Positions 321-8,306 of a stretch of DNA of 46,953 nt are shown here, piece by piece. The notes under the pieces are model-generated. The model was not told the DNA's origin. It searched no databases and was given only the letters and a program-made list of their open reading frames with translations. The stretch lies in the NCBI GenBank assembly GCA_013388755.1, contig JACAEQ010000049.1:1-46953 (forward strand), in the 5' to 3' direction. Position 1 is the stretch's first letter. The number at the start of each line of letters is the position of its first letter. Source of the DNA: Chloroflexota bacterium (GTDB taxonomy: Bacteria; Chloroflexota; Chloroflexia; Chloroflexales; Roseiflexaceae). Both the position numbers and the translations under genes were made by a program.

Positions 321-1973
321 TCATGGGCGCGTCACCAGCGGTATCCATGCCGATCTTCTGCCGCGGAAGGTGCTGGCGGTGGCGGTATTGTTGCTGCTCT
401 GCGGATCAGGTTGCGACGACGAGACGATGGCACTGGCGGTGATGGTGCCGCTGCCGGGAGGCACGACAAGTGTGATGGTCAGCACCGGTGCAACGCTTGC
501 CACGCCGAGCGCGCCGCGAATGCAGCTTACGGTTGTGGCGACGGTGCAGGTCCACCCGGCGCCGCCTGTCTGAATGCCGGTTGCACCGGGCGGCGGTGTA
601 AACTGGATCTGTACACTGCCGGCTGCGCCGGGACCGGCGTTTGTGACAATCGCCGAGTAGGTCAGTGTCGCGCCAGGTTCGACCGGATCGGGTGAGTCGA
701 TTAACGCCAGCGCCAGGTCGGCGGGGCCAGGCGGCGGGTTCTCGAAGGCGCCCATGTCACAGGCGGCAAGACCGTCGCCGTTGCCGTCGATCGGGCGGGT
801 TATGCCACGTTGATCCGTCACGGCGCAGGAACTGCCCACTGCCGGGTCGCCGGTGTCAATGGCGGGGCTACCGCTGAGTAATGCCACGGTCGGTGTCGGG
901 CCGCCATTATCCAGGAGTGCAGCAGGCCGTGCGCTGTTGCCGGTCAGATTGCCGGTGAGCGTACCGAGGATCGTGCAGCCAGGTTCGGTGACACGATGGA
1001 TCAGGTTGTACCCCAGCGAGTTCAGTATGCCGAAACAGTCGGGGTTAACATTGGCCGGTGATGGGCTACGATCGGCATTATCGGAAATAATGGTGTTTCG
1101 CAGGTTCAGCTGATTGATGACCAGGCTATCAACGCGTACCGATACGCCGCCGCCTTCGCCGATGTCGTTACGGTCATCGTCAGCGGTATTGCCGGTGATC
1201 GTGACGTTGTTCAGTGTGGCAACGCTCACCGGCGGACTCGCCAGCGCCTGATCGCGCGAAACGCTGATGCCGCCACCGCTGTTGCCGGCACTATTGCCGG
1301 TCATCGTGACATTCGTCAGGGTGGCGCTGCCGCCGTTGAAGACACTGAGTGCGCCACCCAGGCTGGCGGCGCGGTTGCCGGTGAAGGTTACGCGTTCGAT
1401 AGTTGCGCTGGCGCTCGCCGGGTTGACGCCATCGCCAAGCACCTCGATGCCGCCGCCGCGCGTTGCGCGCCCATCGCGTACCACGCTATCCTGCAATGTC
1501 AACGTTGCACCTGGTTCAACGAGGATGCCGCCGCCGCCGCCAGGCGCCTCTCCGGTGCCGCGCAATGTGATGCCGCTGATCGTCAGCACGGCGGTGGCGA
1601 GGGCGTGAAACACGCGGTCACCGGATGCCGCAACAATTGTCGTCGCAGGGGCACCGGCGCCAGTGATCGTCAATGCTGCGCGCACGTCGAGATCGCCGTC
1701 GGCATTCTCGTCCTCAGGGGTCGGTGCAAGCGTCAACGTGTAGGTTCCCGCCGGCACGATAATTGTATCGGGGCCAGGGTTGGCATTGGCGGCGCTCACA
1801 GCCTCCCGCAATGAACAATCGGCGTCGCACACACCATCGGCGGTATCGGCAGTCCTGGTCACGACCAGCGTGAGTGGCGCGGCAGCGGCAGGGATCACTG
1901 CATATACAACCACAAGCGTCGCTCCAAGCACGCCCAGCAGCAGGCGCGCGCGCAGGGGCACGATGGAACGCAT
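321..1973 (-). CDS. secreted CSLREA-type parallel beta-helix protein with DUF11 domain
   Basis: A predicted exported protein of 550 residues. The start at 1973 is chosen over an upstream ATG at 2039 because it has GAGG six bases before it and begins directly with a signal peptide (basic MRSIVPLRAR, a hydrophobic run, then AAAAP near residue 32). The mature N-terminus carries the DADCSLREAVSAAN motif typical of CSLREA-domain proteins. It is followed by right-handed beta-helix repeats with recurring GGGI, TLTNVT and GNSA patterns, then a choice-of-anchor-like region (SPAIDTGDP). A DUF11-type Ig-like domain (ADLALAL...YSAIVTNAGPG) fills the last third. The end WIPLVTRP resembles the short tail seen on many Chloroflexota secreted proteins (recalled, not searched). 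Likely an adhesin or surface protein; substrate unknown. Confidence 0.85.
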   Translation of the reverse strand: MRSIVPLRARLLLGVLGATLVVVYAVIPAAAAPLTLVVTRTADTADGVCDADCSLREAVSAANANPGPDTIIVPAGTYTLTLAPTPEDENADGDLDVRAALTITGAGAPATTIVAASGDRVFHALATAVLTISGITLRGTGEAPGGGGGILVEPGATLTLQDSVVRDGRATRGGGIEVLGDGVNPASASATIERVTFTGNRAASLGGALSVFNGGSATLTNVTMTGNSAGNSGGGISVSRDQALASPPVSVATLNNVTITGNTADDDRNDIGEGGGVSVRVDSLVINQLNLRNTIISDNADRSPSPANVNPDCFGILNSLGYNLIHRVTEPGCTILGTLTGNLTGNSARPAALLDNGGPTPTVALLSGSPAIDTGDPAVGSSCAVTDQRGITRPIDGNGDGLAACDMGAFENPPPGPADLALALIDSPDPVEPGATLTYSAIVTNAGPGAAGSVQIQFTPPPGATGIQTGGAGWTCTVATTVSCIRGALGVASVAPVLTITLVVPPGSGTITASAIVSSSQPDPQSSNNTATASTFRGRRSAWIPLVTRP

Positions 1974-2046
1974 GGCCAACCTCGTATAGCGGACAAGTGG
2001 CGGCTCCACACAGGCGTATTGTACTACATACCCTGGCATGTGATGC

Positions 2047-2076
2047 TTGACAAGTTAAAAGAAGGTCGAGTATACT
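2047..2076 (+). promoter_or_regulatory. sigma-70 promoter of the ilv operon
   Basis: A perfect -35 TTGACA (2047-2052) is separated by 18 bp from -10 TATACT (2071-2076). Transcription should start near 2083, about 27 bases before the leader peptide start codon. It is one of the best promoter matches in the window and heads the branched-chain amino-acid genes. Confidence 0.85.
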
Positions 2077-2109
2077 CCACAGCGTAATGGCCCAGCATAC
2101 ACAGGCAGC

Positions 2110-2181
2110 ATGAACCAGCGAAGCGCCAGCCTCCTCCTTAGCCTGCTCCTTGTAGCCCTGATTAGTATCACGGGTTTATGA
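2110..2181 (+). CDS. ilv operon leader peptide (attenuation)
   Basis: A 23-residue reading frame of ATG to TGA lying between the promoter and the terminator hairpin ahead of ilvB. Eight of its residues are Leu, one Val and two Ile, clustered as SLLLSLLLVALISI. This is what a ribosome-mediated attenuator for branched-chain amino-acid genes needs: shortage of charged Leu/Val/Ile tRNA would stall the ribosome in this run. The stop codon at 2179-2181 lies six bases before a run of six G (2188-2193), so a ribosome terminating there would cover that run. The ribosome-binding site is weak (AGG at 2103-2105). That it is translated is inference, but composition and position are hard to explain otherwise. 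Confidence 0.8.
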   Translation: MNQRSASLLLSLLLVALISITGL

Positions 2182-2219
2182 GCGGTTGGGGGGAAACAAG
2201 CACGGCGCAACGATGAGAC

Positions 2220-2254
2220 GGGCCCCTCCCAGACGCGGGAGGGGTCCTTCGTTT
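2220..2254 (+). terminator. ilvB attenuator terminator hairpin
   Basis: An 11-bp GC-rich stem (2220-2230 with 2237-2247, one G-U pair) with a six-base loop agacgc is followed by the T-rich TTCGTTT. It lies 38 bp after the leader peptide stop and 42 bp before the ilvB start. The left arm (CCCCTCCC) can alternatively pair with the G-run at 2188-2193, giving a plausible antiterminator. The G-run could instead pair with CCTCCTCC inside the leader Leu codons (2130-2137). This fits a classical 1:2, 2:3, 3:4 switch. Confidence 0.75.
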
Positions 2255-2295
2255 ATGCCCGGACACCAGTTTTATCAGTAGCAGAGGAGAAGCAG

Positions 2296-4038
2296 ATGTC
2301 CGACAAGCGTACCGGCGCTCAGGTAATGTGCGAGGCGCTGATCCGCAACGGGGTGGATGTGATGTTTGGCATCCCGGGCGGAGCGATCATGCCGTTCTAC
2401 TACGCGATGTGGGAGTACCGTGACAGGCTGCGGCACATCCTGTGCCGTCACGAACAGGGCGCGGGGCACGCCGCCGAAGGGTACGCCCGCGCCAGCGGGC
2501 GGCTGGGGGTCTGCATCGGTACCAGTGGCCCCGGCACCACCAACCTGGTCACCCCCATTGCCGACGCGATGATGGACAGTACACCATTACTGGCGATTAC
2601 CGGCCAGGTTGGCTCCCACGTGCTCGGTAAGGATGCCTTCCAGGAGACGGATATCACCGGCATTACGATGCCGATCACCAAGCATAACTACCTGGTGAAG
2701 AAAGCCGCCGAGTTACCCTATGTCTTTGAAGAGGCGATCTTTATCGCCACCACGGGTCGCCCCGGGCCAGTGTTGATAGACATCACCAAGGATGCACAGC
2801 AAGCGACGATCGTTCCCGACTGGAACATCAAACTCGACCTCCCGGGCTACAAGCCGAACTATCAGCCGAATCGTAAGCAGGTGCGCGAGGCGATCAAACT
2901 CCTGTTGAGCGCCCGGAAGCCGCTGATTATGGCCGGCAATGGCGTCATCATGGCCGGGGCCGTTGAGGAGTTGCGCGCGTTTGCTGAACAGACACGCATC
3001 CCGGTCATTACCACCCTGCACGGCATCGGCGCCTTTCCTGAGGATCATCCGCTGAGCATCGGCATGCCGGGCATGCATGGCTGGGTGCATGTCAATCGCG
3101 CCATCCAGGAATGTGATGTGCTGTTCAATATCGGCGGGCGCTTCGATGACCGGGTGACGGGCAAGGCCAGCACCTTCGCGCCGCATGCGAAGGTGATTCA
3201 CGTTGACATTGACCCGTCGGAAATTGGCAAGAATGTCAAGGTGACGGTGCCGATTGTTGCTGATGCGCGCCTGGCGCTGCAGGCGTTCCTCAGCGAGTTC
3301 CCGGAGCGTGAGGCGTTTGCCGAGTTGCACGGCCATGCCTCCGACTGGATGGAGCATATCCGTGAGATGCAGTCGAAGCATCAGCACAAGCAGCAGTATC
3401 TCAACCGGTCGGAGACCGAGCATATGAGTCTGCCGCCGCACGACGTCTACGCTGCGCTGACTCGGGCGCTCAACACGCGTGGCAATTATCGCGTCGTTAC
3501 CGATGTCGGTCAGCATCAGATGTGGGCGGCGCAACTGATCGACTGGTATCGCCCGCGCACCCATATCACATCCGGTGGCGCGGGCACCATGGGGTTTGCG
3601 GTTCCGGCAGCGCTGGGTGTGGCAGTGGCCCATCCGAACGACACCGTCTGGGCGGTGTGCGGCGATGGCGGCTTCCAGATGACCAACCAGGAGATGGCGA
3701 CCATCATCCAGGAAGGGATCAAGAATGTCAAGGTGGCCGTAATCAACAATGGGTACCTTGGCATGGTGCGCCAGTGGCAGGAGCTCTTCGAGAACAAGCG
3801 CTACAGCGGCACGCCGCTCTCCGGGCCGGATTTCGCAAAACTGGCCGAGGCGTATTACTGGAAGGGTATCACTGTAGAGGATAGCAGCCAGGTTGAGGCG
3901 GCGATCGAGGAAGCCTATGCGACCGACGGGCCGGTGCTGATTGATTTCCGTGTCGAGCGCGAGGTGAATGTGTTCCCGATGGTGCCGCAGAACAAGAGTA
4001 TCGGTGAGATGATCCTGGAGACGCCACACGAGTCGTAG
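2296..4038 (+). CDS. ilvB: acetolactate synthase large (catalytic) subunit
   Basis: Thiamine-diphosphate enzyme that joins two pyruvates to 2-acetolactate (Val/Leu path) or pyruvate plus 2-oxobutyrate to 2-aceto-2-hydroxybutyrate (Ile path). The 580-residue length is normal. Visible features are the N-terminal GIPGGAIMPFY, the catalytic glutamate E53 in RHEQGAGHAAEGYARASG, the central FAD-binding domain (GRFDDRVTGK) and the C-terminal ThDP/Mg motif starting GDGGFQM near residue 456 and continuing to INNGYLGMVRQWQ. GGAGA five bases before the ATG fixes the start. It is the first structural gene after the leader/attenuator and is followed by its regulatory subunit 57 bp on. Confidence 0.97.
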   Translation: MSDKRTGAQVMCEALIRNGVDVMFGIPGGAIMPFYYAMWEYRDRLRHILCRHEQGAGHAAEGYARASGRLGVCIGTSGPGTTNLVTPIADAMMDSTPLLAITGQVGSHVLGKDAFQETDITGITMPITKHNYLVKKAAELPYVFEEAIFIATTGRPGPVLIDITKDAQQATIVPDWNIKLDLPGYKPNYQPNRKQVREAIKLLLSARKPLIMAGNGVIMAGAVEELRAFAEQTRIPVITTLHGIGAFPEDHPLSIGMPGMHGWVHVNRAIQECDVLFNIGGRFDDRVTGKASTFAPHAKVIHVDIDPSEIGKNVKVTVPIVADARLALQAFLSEFPEREAFAELHGHASDWMEHIREMQSKHQHKQQYLNRSETEHMSLPPHDVYAALTRALNTRGNYRVVTDVGQHQMWAAQLIDWYRPRTHITSGGAGTMGFAVPAALGVAVAHPNDTVWAVCGDGGFQMTNQEMATIIQEGIKNVKVAVINNGYLGMVRQWQELFENKRYSGTPLSGPDFAKLAEAYYWKGITVEDSSQVEAAIEEAYATDGPVLIDFRVEREVNVFPMVPQNKSIGEMILETPHES

Positions 4039-4095
4039 CATGCGTTGTGGTGGCGCCACTCGCGGCACTACCCACGCTCAATAGGAACACATGCC

Positions 4096-4638
4096 ATGAA
4101 AAAACACACAATCGTCGCGCTCGTGCAGGACCGCCCTGGTGTGCTGAGCCGGGTCATCGGGCTTATCCGGCGACGCGGCTTCAATATCGAAAGCCTGGCG
4201 GTCGGCCATAGCGAGACGCCGGGAGTCAGCCGGATGACGATCGTGATCGAGTGGGAGGATGTGGAGCAGGTCGTCAAGCAGCTCTACCGCCTGATCGAAG
4301 TGCTTAAAGTGAGCGACGTGACCGATGACCCGGTCGTCGAGCGCGAGATGACGCTGATCAAGATCCATGCTCCCGGGCCGAAACGGCCGGAGATCGTCGC
4401 GCTGAGCGAAGTATTTGATGCCAAAATCATTGACGTCGGCGCAAATACGATGGTGATCGAGATGACCGGCTCGCCAGCCAAGGTGCAGAACTTTATTGAT
4501 GTGATCCGCCCCTACGGCATCAAGGAGATGATGCGCACCGGGCGGATCGCCATGGTGCGCGGCGTGCGCGGCCATAATGCCGAGGAGTTCGTCGAAAATG
4601 CCAACGGTCACGCCGAACGTGTTCCTGTGATGAATTAG
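4096..4638 (+). CDS. ilvN: acetolactate synthase small (regulatory) subunit
   Basis: The regulatory partner of IlvB; it binds valine and stimulates the catalytic subunit. The 180-residue protein has an N-terminal ACT domain (HTIVALVQDRPGVLSRV, then RRGFNIESLAVG) and a C-terminal ALS small-subunit domain (EVFDAKIIDVG). The reading frame is open upstream to 4045, but the homologous N-terminus MKKHTIVALV begins at 4096, with AGGA ten bases upstream, so that start is preferred. Also called ilvH in some genomes. It should be co-transcribed with ilvB. Confidence 0.95.
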   Translation: MKKHTIVALVQDRPGVLSRVIGLIRRRGFNIESLAVGHSETPGVSRMTIVIEWEDVEQVVKQLYRLIEVLKVSDVTDDPVVEREMTLIKIHAPGPKRPEIVALSEVFDAKIIDVGANTMVIEMTGSPAKVQNFIDVIRPYGIKEMMRTGRIAMVRGVRGHNAEEFVENANGHAERVPVMN

Positions 4639-4721: not shown

Positions 4722-4790
4722 AGCATGTGGCCGGTATACGAGGGAGTATGCCGAGGTTCCAAGCCTTTGCTTGTCTTGACTATTACAGCA

Positions 4791-4811
4791 CGGGGTGGTT
4801 GCTCTGCCCCG
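4791..4811 (+). other. hairpin just before the ilvC ribosome-binding site
   Basis: CGGGGTGG (4791-4798) can pair with CTGCCCCG (4804-4811) around a five-base loop, with two G-U pairs. It ends two bases before the AGGAG at 4814-4818. There is no U-tract, so it is not a normal terminator. It might influence ilvC translation or be incidental. Confidence 0.4.
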
Positions 4812-4832
4812 CCAGGAGTAAGAATCACTGCC

Positions 4833-5855
4833 ATGGCCAGGATTTACTACGAAAACCACGCCGACCTGTCCCGCCTTGCGGGTCGTACCATCGCGATTAT
4901 CGGCTTCGGTAGCCAGGGTCACGCCCACGCGCTGAATCTCAAAGAGAGTGGCTGCGATGTTGTGGTCGGCCTGTATGGCGGGTCGAAAAGCTGGGGCAAG
5001 GCCGAAGGCCTTGGTCTGAAGGTACGCACCGTTGCCGATGCGGCGAAAGAAGCACAGATAATCATGATCGTCACACCCGATACTGGACAGGCGGCGCTCT
5101 ATCGCGACGAGATTGCGCCCGCCATGACCACCGGCAAGACGCTGATGTTCGCCCACGGCTTCAATATTCGCTTTGGCCAGATCGTTCCTCCTGAAGGTGT
5201 GGATGTCAGCATGGTCGCGCCCAAGGCACCCGGGCATCGGGTACGCGAGGTCTACACGCAGGGTGGCGGCGTACCGGCGCTGGTCGCCGTCCACCAGGAC
5301 GCATCAGGCAATGCGCTGGCCGATGCGCTGGCCTATGCACGCGGCCTCGGCTGCACACGCGCCGGTGTGCTCGAAACAACGTTTGCTGAAGAGACCGAGA
5401 CGGATCTGTTCGGGGAGCAGGTTGTATTGTGCGGCGGCGTGTCGGCGCTGGTCAAAACGGCCTTTGAGACACTCGTCGACGCCGGCTATCAGCCTGAGGT
5501 GGCGTATTTCGAGTGTATGCACGAACTGAAGCTGATCGTTGACCTGTTCTACCAGGGCGGGCTAAACTACATGCGCTATTCGGTCAGCGATACCGCCGAG
5601 TGGGGCGACTATACCGCCGGGCCGAAGATTATTACCGATGAGACGCGCGCAACCATGAAGCGCATCCTGGCCGATATCCAGAGTGGCGCATTTGCGGAGG
5701 ACTGGATTGAGGAAAATCACAATGGCCGGCCGCGTTTCAATGCCTACCGGGCGAAGGATGTCTCGCACCAGATCGAGCAGGTGGGTCGCGAATTGCGCCG
5801 TATGATGCCGTTCGTCAATCCGCGCGAGGTGACGCCAGGCGAGGGTGGGGCCTGA
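4833..5855 (+). CDS. ilvC: ketol-acid reductoisomerase
   Basis: Catalyses the NADPH- and Mg-dependent rearrangement and reduction of acetohydroxy acids to dihydroxy acids for Val, Leu and Ile. At 340 residues it is a class I (short) enzyme. The N-terminal Rossmann motif [17 protein letters not shown] lies at about residues 18-34. The knotted C-terminal domain shows [11 protein letters not shown], the E-x-x-H segment [12 protein letters not shown] and [11 protein letters not shown]. The frame stays open upstream to 4725, but the family N-terminus [12 protein letters not shown] starts at 4833; AGGAG lies 14 bases ahead, which is rather long. The stop codon directly abuts the first heptamer array. 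Confidence 0.95.
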
Positions 5856-6029: not shown

Positions 6030-6512
6030 ATGGCGAGGGACATTGTGTCGAGCGACTATACCTATCGAAAACTGATTGTCTGGGATCGGGCGCAGCGACT
6101 TGCGCTTGAGGTATTGAAACTCGTCCAGCGATTGCCGTCGGGTTGGGGAACGGCCGTTATTGCACGTCAGATCATCGGTTCAGCAACATCAATCGGCGCG
6201 AATATTGCTGAGGGGCATGGCCGTTTTACACCCGGCGCGCATCGCAATCATCTGTCAATCGCGAAAGGGTCGGCGGCGGAAACTGATAGCTGGCTTGATC
6301 TGCTCTGTCGTGCTGGCCATCTTTCGGAGGAGGAAGAAGCCAGGTTGCACACGGAATGCCATGAGATCATGGCCATGTTGACCAGTAAGATTCGTAAGCT
6401 GGGAGATTCCGTGAATCAGTCTCCTTCCGTGGTTCGCGAAGAAACGGCATCTTATCAGACTGATACGCCCACCGAGCCGCCGTTTCCATTCGTTCCCGAA
6501 GACTATTTGTAG
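6030..6512 (+). CDS. four-helix-bundle protein, S23/23S rRNA intervening-sequence family
   Basis: 160 residues. The core matches the family pattern: YRKLIVWDRAQRLALEVLKL, IARQIIGSATSIGANIAEGHGR, HRNHLSIAKGSAAETDSWLDL, then a helix ending near residue 123. These proteins were first seen in insertions of 23S rRNA genes and are structurally related to the Avd accessory protein of diversity-generating retroelements; a molecular role is not established. The last 35 residues are an acidic/proline-rich tail. The start is uncertain: ATG 6030 has GAGGGA touching it, while in-frame GTG 6045 has GAGGG five to six bases upstream. It sits alone between two inverted heptamer arrays within the ilv-leu operon, which suggests a cassette inserted between ilvC and leuA. 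Confidence 0.88.
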   Translation: MARDIVSSDYTYRKLIVWDRAQRLALEVLKLVQRLPSGWGTAVIARQIIGSATSIGANIAEGHGRFTPGAHRNHLSIAKGSAAETDSWLDLLCRAGHLSEEEEARLHTECHEIMAMLTSKIRKLGDSVNQSPSVVREETASYQTDTPTEPPFPFVPEDYL

Positions 6513-6596: not shown

Positions 6597-6626
6597 CGGC
6601 CAATGAAAAGGAGTCATACAGCAATC

Positions 6627-8306
6627 ATGGAGGATCACGTACGCATCTTCGACACCACATTGCGTGACGGCGAACAGGCGCCGGGTTGCACAATGACGCT
6701 GGAGGAGAAGCTGGAAGTTGCACGGCAACTCGCGCGGCTGGGTGTGGATATTATTGAAGCCGGCTTTCCCGCCGCGTCTCCCGGTGACTGGGCGGCAGTG
6801 CACGAGATCGCCGGTGCGGTCGGCTCGCCTGACGGGCCGGTGATTGCCGCGCTGGCACGCGCCAACAAGGACGATATCGACAAGGCGTGGAGCGCGATCC
6901 AGCCGGCTGCGAAGAAGCGCATTCATACGTTCATCTCCTCGTCCGACATCCATATTGAGCACCAGTTCCGTTCCACCCGCGAGGAAATCCTCGAACGCGC
7001 CAGGCTGATGGTGCGCTATGCGCGCTCCCTCTGCGACGATGTCGAGTTCTCGCCGATGGATGCGACGCGTTCCGAACCGGAATATGTCTACCGCATGCTT
7101 GCCGCGGTCGTCGCCGAAGGCGCAACGACGCTCAATATCCCCGACACGGTCGGGTATGCGACCCCGGAGGAGTACGCCGCCCTGATTGCCGGTATCTACC
7201 GGCATGTTCCCGGCGCTGACCGGGTCATCATCTCGACACATTGCCATGACGACCTGGGGCTGGCAGTTGCCAACTCGCTGGCCGGTGTGCGTGCCGGCGC
7301 GCGGCAGATCGAATGCACCATCAATGGTATTGGTGAGCGTGCGGGTAATGCTTCGCTCGAAGAAGTGGTGATGGCGCTGAAAACACGCCGCTCGTTCTTC
7401 AATGTTGATACGCGGATCAACACGCGTGAACTGGCGCGCAGCAGCCGCTTGCTCAGTACAATCATCGCCATGCCGGTACCGCCGAACAAGGCCATTGTCG
7501 GCGCCAACGCCTTTGCGCATGAATCAGGCATCCACCAGGATGGCGTGCTGAAGCATCGCATGACATATGAGATCATGGATGCAACGACCATTGGCCTGGA
7601 TGGTAATTCGCTCATTCTGGGGAAGCATTCGGGCCGCAATGCGCTGCGCACGAAGCTGGCGGCAATGGGGTATGAATTCGATACCGAGGAGGAGTTCAAC
7701 CAGGTCTTCCAGCGCTTTAAGGAGCTGTGCGACAAGAAGAAGGTCGTGGATGACCGCGACCTGGAGGTGCTGGCGACTGGCGGCTCGTTGCATACGCCAG
7801 AACTGTACCGCCTGGAGCATGTGCAGGTGACCTGCGGTACCGGCGTTACACCGGTCGCGACGGTGCGCATCATTGATCCGGATGGTCATGCGACCACGAC
7901 AGCAGCGCATGGTACCGGCCCGGTTGACGCGATCTACAAGGCTATTGACCGGGTGGTCGGGCGACCGAATGAGCTTATTGAGTTTTCGATCAAGGCGGTG
8001 ACCGAAGGGATTGATGCGGTGGCCGAAGTGTCGGTGCGGGTGCGTGAGCCGGGCGACGCCGTGACGGAGGGCGAGTATCGCGTCGGGCGGCATCGTGGGC
8101 CGCAGATTTACAGCGGCTACAGCGCCAATACCGATACCATCGTTGCCGCAGCCGAGTCGTACATGGCGGCGCTGAACAAGATGATCGCCGCGCGCCAGGA
8201 ACGGTTGAGCGCCGAGAATGCAGCCTATGCCGCCGGGTATGATCGCACGAAGCCGACCTATGCCGTGGACCTGTTCGGCCAGAATGCCGTCGGGGCGACG
8301 GAGTAG
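6627..8306 (+). CDS. leuA: 2-isopropylmalate synthase
   Basis: First committed step of leucine synthesis: acetyl-CoA plus 2-oxoisovalerate to 2-isopropylmalate. 559 residues. The catalytic TIM barrel starts with [19 protein letters not shown], and the metal-binding HxH is in [34 protein letters not shown] and the linker motif [19 protein letters not shown] follow. The C-terminal third is the regulatory domain ([12 protein letters not shown]), so leucine feedback is possible. ATG 6627 matches the family N-terminus, with AAGGAG 13 bases upstream; another in-frame ATG at 6603 lies before that site and is less likely. Transcription probably comes through from ilvBNC past the repeat cassette. Confidence 0.95.

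Follow-up and report, generated by a model that had tools for sequence, protein, structure and literature searches.

The ilvB operon of a Roseiflexaceae genome (5.08 Mb in 145 contigs) is preceded, within the stretch of 46,953 nucleotides analysed here (the window), by what is very probably a ribosome-mediated leader-peptide transcription attenuator. This assignment draws on anatomy, conservation, coevolution, codon bias and folding, all of them computational. The device is real and conserved and, as a prediction, almost certainly functional as a ribosome-mediated attenuator. Kinship labels used below (f1, g1, f7, g7 and the like) are those assigned by genome search; the ilvB of the window is 91-93% identical to the ilvB of genus g7. 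The parts of the device and the genes behind it are, in order:

2047 to 2076, forward strand: sigma-70-type promoter, TTGACA (2047-2052), 18 nt, TATACT (2071-2076), 11 of 12 consensus positions
2110 to 2181, forward strand: predicted leader peptide ORF, MNQRSASLLLSLLLVALISITGL followed by the stop, with Leu/Val/Ile control codons; judged from conservation in relatives, pN/pS and codon bias
about 2132 to 2148, forward strand: region 1, Leu codons (CTC CTC CTT ...), predicted to pair with region 2 as a protector helix unless covered by a ribosome; folding with and without ribosome footprint
2186 to 2193, forward strand: region 2, TTGGGGGG, left arm of the antiterminator, including the G-run at 2188-2193; hidden by a ribosome which has reached the stop codon (folding)
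2220 to 2247, forward strand: intrinsic terminator stem-loop of 11 bp (arms 2220-2230 and 2237-2247) with a short T-rich tail to 2254; -27.0 kcal/mol for 2216-2251
2225 to 2232, forward strand: region 3, CCTCCCAG, partner of region 2 (antiterminator) or of region 4 (terminator); folding and coevolution
2296 to 4038, forward strand: ilvB, acetolactate synthase large subunit, ATG at 2296, first gene of the operon (TIGR00118, 720 bits)
4045 to 4638, forward strand: ilvN, acetolactate synthase small subunit, probably with its start codon at about 4098 (TIGR00119)
4725 to 5855, forward strand: ilvC, ketol-acid reductoisomerase (TIGR00465)
6603 to 8306, forward strand: leuA, 2-isopropylmalate synthase (TIGR00973)

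The promoter match is unique within 1500-3000, where 0.5 such matches are expected, and relatives carry TTGACA/TATACT-like elements at the equivalent position. Given this promoter, the transcript is expected to start near 2083. From ilvB onwards the gene order is ilvB, ilvN, ilvC, a four-helix-bundle protein gene (TIGR02436, at 6030-6512 between ilvC and leuA), leuA, pheA and cimA; being on the same strand, leuA probably belongs to the ilvB operon. The products of ilvB, ilvN, ilvC and leuA make Ile, Val and Leu, which are the amino acids that the leader would sense. As the neighbouring gene on the 5′ side of the device (321-2039) is divergent and points away on the opposite strand, the terminator at 2220-2247 is not the terminator of that gene.

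The 23 codons of the leader include 8 for Leu, 1 for Val and 2 for Ile, and the G-run begins six bases past the leader stop. The sequence-only reading had called the attenuator complete on the basis of a near-consensus promoter, a 23-codon leader with 11 branched-chain residues, a G-run six bases after its stop and an 11-bp terminator stem before ilvB. All of these parts were recovered with their coordinates and counts, but the protector helix between the Leu codons and the G-run, which completes the set of four regions, had been overlooked. The window holds a Leu/Val/Ile-rich ORF, a terminator between this ORF and the first structural gene and an antiterminator that is mutually exclusive with this terminator, with the final two bases of region 3 sitting in the terminator loop. 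Folding of the RNA from 2083 to 2260 yields z = -3.98 against shuffles. A weak point is the T-tract following the terminator, which in the window is short and interrupted (CCTTCGTTT); relatives have better tracts.

The leader of the window was folded with a ribosome footprint at successive codon positions. With no ribosome, or with a ribosome at codons 1-4, region 2 is taken up by the Leu codons at about 2132-2148, and region 3 is left for the terminator. An A-site at any of codons 5-21 lets region 2 pair with region 3 ahead of the synthesis of region 4. A ribosome that has reached the stop codon covers region 2, so that the antiterminator is lost and the terminator forms. This contrast between stalling and stopping was found in 42 of 47 genera and, together with the folding of the window, agrees with the earlier proposal that stalling frees the G-run to pair with the left arm of the terminator. 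The placement of region 2 varies by genus, from inside the last leader codons to past the stop, yet it always lies within the cover of a terminating ribosome. The protector helix forms in the folded leader of the window but is not universal, as several lineages form the antiterminator even without a ribosome. The finished terminator (-27.0 kcal/mol) far exceeds the antiterminator (-16.5 kcal/mol in the window) in stability, so that antitermination must be kinetic.

The transcript start, the actual termination, the stalling and the amino-acid response which we infer from these features would combine as follows. RNA polymerase would initiate near 2083 and a ribosome would start on the leader. 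With ample charged Leu, Val and Ile tRNA, the ribosome would reach the stop codon and hide the G-run in region 2, so that regions 3 and 4 could form the terminator and transcription would stop near 2250. If one of these charged tRNAs were scarce, the ribosome would stall on Leu, Val or Ile codons, covering region 1 and exposing region 2, which could then capture region 3 before region 4 exists and thereby permit readthrough into ilvB-ilvN-ilvC-leuA. Without a ribosome, region 2 would be sequestered by the Leu codons, and the terminator would form.

That the alternative helix matters in itself is indicated by its coevolution, and compensatory change in the stems, which had been suggested as a check, was indeed seen between genera in the antiterminator pairing. 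Across 47 genera, the mean pairing energy of region 2 is -20.7 kcal/mol with the left terminator arm from its own genus and -16.9 kcal/mol with those from other genera (p ~5e-5). Examples of such pairs of region 2 and region 3 are UGUUUGGGAGGGGCU with AGCCCCUCCCAAACA (G074), UGCGGAAGG with CCUUCCGCA (G077) and CCGUUUAGGA with UCCUAAACGG (G155). The advantage of own pairing persists under within-family permutation (p=0.00045 in Chloroflexales, p=0.0001 in the class), a procedure which removes shared ancestry in part. For Roseiflexaceae alone (n=8) it does not reach significance (p=0.1). In addition, terminator-loop bases which are unused by the stem match region 2 at 1.38 bases, compared to 0.86 bases in permuted loops (p=0.0004). 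Testing region 2 against region 3 with dinucleotide shuffles gave a median p of 0.2-0.6 in some genera and 0.065 in the window; as shuffles retain the G-runs this test is weak for several genera, and cross-pairing between genera was therefore used. The match of region 2 to its own region 3 and to the terminator loop is direct evidence that the antiterminator itself, besides the terminator, is under selection.

Translation of the leader is supported by the pattern of substitutions. Its pN/pS lies at 0.18-0.65 in eight groups of close relatives, and as all eight values are below 1 the leader behaves like a translated frame, which is, judged from these ratios, under purifying selection. The codons are also unusual: GTA makes up 70% of Val codons in leaders vs 8% in window genes, ATT 67% of Ile codons vs 29%, CTC and CTT together 79% of Leu codons vs 31%, and CTG 8% of Leu codons vs 50%. 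Selective tRNA charging leads one to expect that attenuation leaders are strongly biased in their codons (PMC1183508). The preference for CTC and CTT could partly be due to pairing with the G-run, an explanation which cannot account for GTA and ATT. Retention of Leu, Val and Ile at changed sites was considered as a further argument and dropped, as it showed no excess over the neutral expectation of 0.35.

A conserved hydrophobic frame could also encode a functional small membrane peptide, with the hairpin being an ordinary partial terminator that is not coupled to it. The peptide is indeed one hydrophobic segment, the frame is conserved and the stretch LVLLLIGWS is kept between Chloroflexaceae genera. 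This explanation is nevertheless very unlikely, considering the non-preferred codons throughout the leader, the coevolution of regions 2 and 3, the G-run which falls within the ORF end or past the stop depending on the genus but always under the terminating ribosome, and the constant location of the device at the operon head, before ilvB or ilvD. Similarly, the peptide might cause nascent-chain arrest and, within the exit tunnel, sense a free amino acid instead of a missing charged tRNA. Such an arrest could use the same RNA switch, and in Chloroflexaceae parts of the peptide are conserved from genus to genus. Between families, however, the peptides vary freely and keep only their Leu/Val/Ile content, pN/pS is just moderately below 1 and the choice among synonymous codons is strongly biased, all of which makes arrest by the peptide highly improbable compared to stalling for want of charged tRNA.

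Chance occurrence was assessed by a scan for ORFs of 10-45 codons with a Leu/Val/Ile-rich stretch and a terminator-like hairpin within 90 nt. Requiring at least 8 Leu, Val or Ile in 12 codons, the scan has a single match on both strands of the window (94 kb), which is this device, and no match in 300 dinucleotide-shuffled operon upstream regions of 800 nt. Requiring at least 9 in 12, it yielded one match in a 367 kb antisense control and none in a 247 kb sense control. The false-positive rate of the scan is near zero. Its 45-codon ORF limit caused the leaders G088, G106, G099 and G125 at class level to be missed or mis-started; these were seen by eye.

Lack of conservation of the leader frame in close relatives had been named as a refutation of the attenuator, and this was not the outcome: in Chloroflexales and further afield, frame and hairpins stay together with the operon head. 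The device, defined as Leu/Val/Ile-rich ORF plus terminator, was found in 68 of the 71 Chloroflexales genomes with an ilv operon head that were examined. In the other three, the contigs are cut or masked at the operon head, so that all 68 genomes with an intact head carry it. In operons starting with ilvD, including that of Herpetosiphon (MNNRPAFIIISNLLSLVIVVITRSLLCGRG), it lies before ilvD, and it is therefore tied to the operon head and not to one gene. Upstream of ilvD, trpE, hisD and leuC in the same genome (including L212, L214 and L219) no matching leader was found; as ilvD, trpE and hisD do not have a leader-peptide attenuator, the ilvB operon is the only one with the device among the operons examined.

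Some further observations concern these operon heads. In nine loci from several Chloroflexaceae genera and one Roseiflexaceae genus (L117, L106, L107, L122, L124, L011, L115, L116, L131), an additional small ORF, about 31-42 codons long, with an amphipathic start and a Pro/Val/Arg-rich end (e.g., MEQRIGRIIGDLLARLGSLRLQPAPVPVRVRR) is located between the attenuator terminator and ilvB; no such ORF is present at this location in the window. Most Chloroflexaceae (e.g., L106, L110, L115) show a conserved AGACTGA-type stretch directly 5′ of the terminator left arm. Five records titled Gemmatimonadetes (L034-L038) contain an ilvB that is 70-72% identical to that of the window, above the value for Herpetosiphon (63%), for which operon transfer or a binning error are possible explanations.

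As T-boxes stand before ilv operons elsewhere in the class and the phylum, a T-box or a metabolite riboswitch next to an incidental ORF has to be considered as well. This is extremely improbable, as no Rfam family was found at 1950-2400 even at E = 1, and the T-box model RF00230 has no match in the window at its gathering score and none in 1950-2400 at E up to 1. Moreover, the T-box-bearing family f7 of the same class has the leader attenuator as well.

In four genera of f7, a full T-box (106-147 bits) with its own terminator is followed by a Leu/Val/Ile leader with antiterminator, a second terminator and ilvB, as seen in the final ~560 bases before ilvB at loci L174, L178, L181 and L182. Read from two alignments, the specifier of this T-box looks like CUC (Leu). 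To our knowledge, no tandem of a T-box and a leader-peptide attenuator has been described. The tandem of f7 may be new; leader peptides go unmentioned in a 2025 survey of contiguous riboswitches (PMC12452182).

Leader-peptide attenuators are established in Proteobacteria. With the ilv, leu, trp and his attenuators known there, such as those of E. coli ilvGMEDA, ilvBN and leuABCD, the device shares the promoter, the type of Leu/Ile/Val-rich ORF, the ordered helices 1:2, 2:3 and 3:4, the biosynthetic operon downstream and the biased control codons. It differs by belonging to another phylum, and no sequence similarity was noticed. Furthermore, many relatives have region 2 within or just past the last leader codons, and some do not have the 1:2 protector. 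T-box leaders of ilv genes (RF00230) likewise sense tRNA charging and control an intrinsic terminator, but the window has no T-box match, and in f7 the T-box is located upstream of the leader-peptide attenuator. The ilvB leaders of Actinobacteria (Corynebacterium, Mycobacterium, Streptomyces) also combine a short Ile/Val/Leu-rich ORF with a terminator before ilvB (PMC1262725; PMC11857589; PMC10272879). Their codon runs are reported to overlap the terminator hairpin, and how they act is debated; in the device described here, the terminator stands apart and the alternative helix shows coevolution. A point for caution is that, for the similar-looking ilvB leader of Streptomyces coelicolor, mutation of candidate control codons is said to have been without effect in the study as cited in PMC1262725.

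Leader-peptide attenuators have been predicted before ilvB in Actinobacteria (PMC1262725) and occur in a few Firmicutes (PMC2965389; PMC9413887; PMC5794164); according to PMC2965389 (2010), none were known outside Proteobacteria and Actinobacteria before its own find in Firmicutes. A survey of cis-regulatory RNAs that included five Chloroflexi genomes does not mention leader peptides (PMC3766115), and a survey of short leader genes regarded Chloroflexi as too sparsely sampled (PMC4833913). In the open PMC literature, a scope which excludes the broad prediction paper of Lopatovskaya et al. 2010, no description of leader-peptide attenuation in Chloroflexota was found. The remark of the sequence-only reading that it was not aware of a description for this lineage holds within that literature. 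The mechanism is hence of a known kind, and Chloroflexota appears to be a lineage for which it is undescribed in the open literature searched.

Chances are roughly even that ilv leader-peptide attenuation is ancestral, or nearly so, in Chloroflexota, which would add a further deep lineage with an antiterminator maintained by coevolution and, in f7, with a Leu-type T-box in tandem as a two-step gate for tRNA charging. Class-wide conservation and coevolving alternative helices imply that ribosome-mediated attenuation is far more widespread, and, with the f7 tandem, the question of why a cell should monitor tRNA charging twice becomes open to experiment. The approximately 47 natural variants at genus level allow the study of how the switch tolerates shifts of region 2 relative to the stop codon. 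The device also predicts that transcription and translation in Chloroflexota would be coupled closely enough for a ribosome to direct termination.
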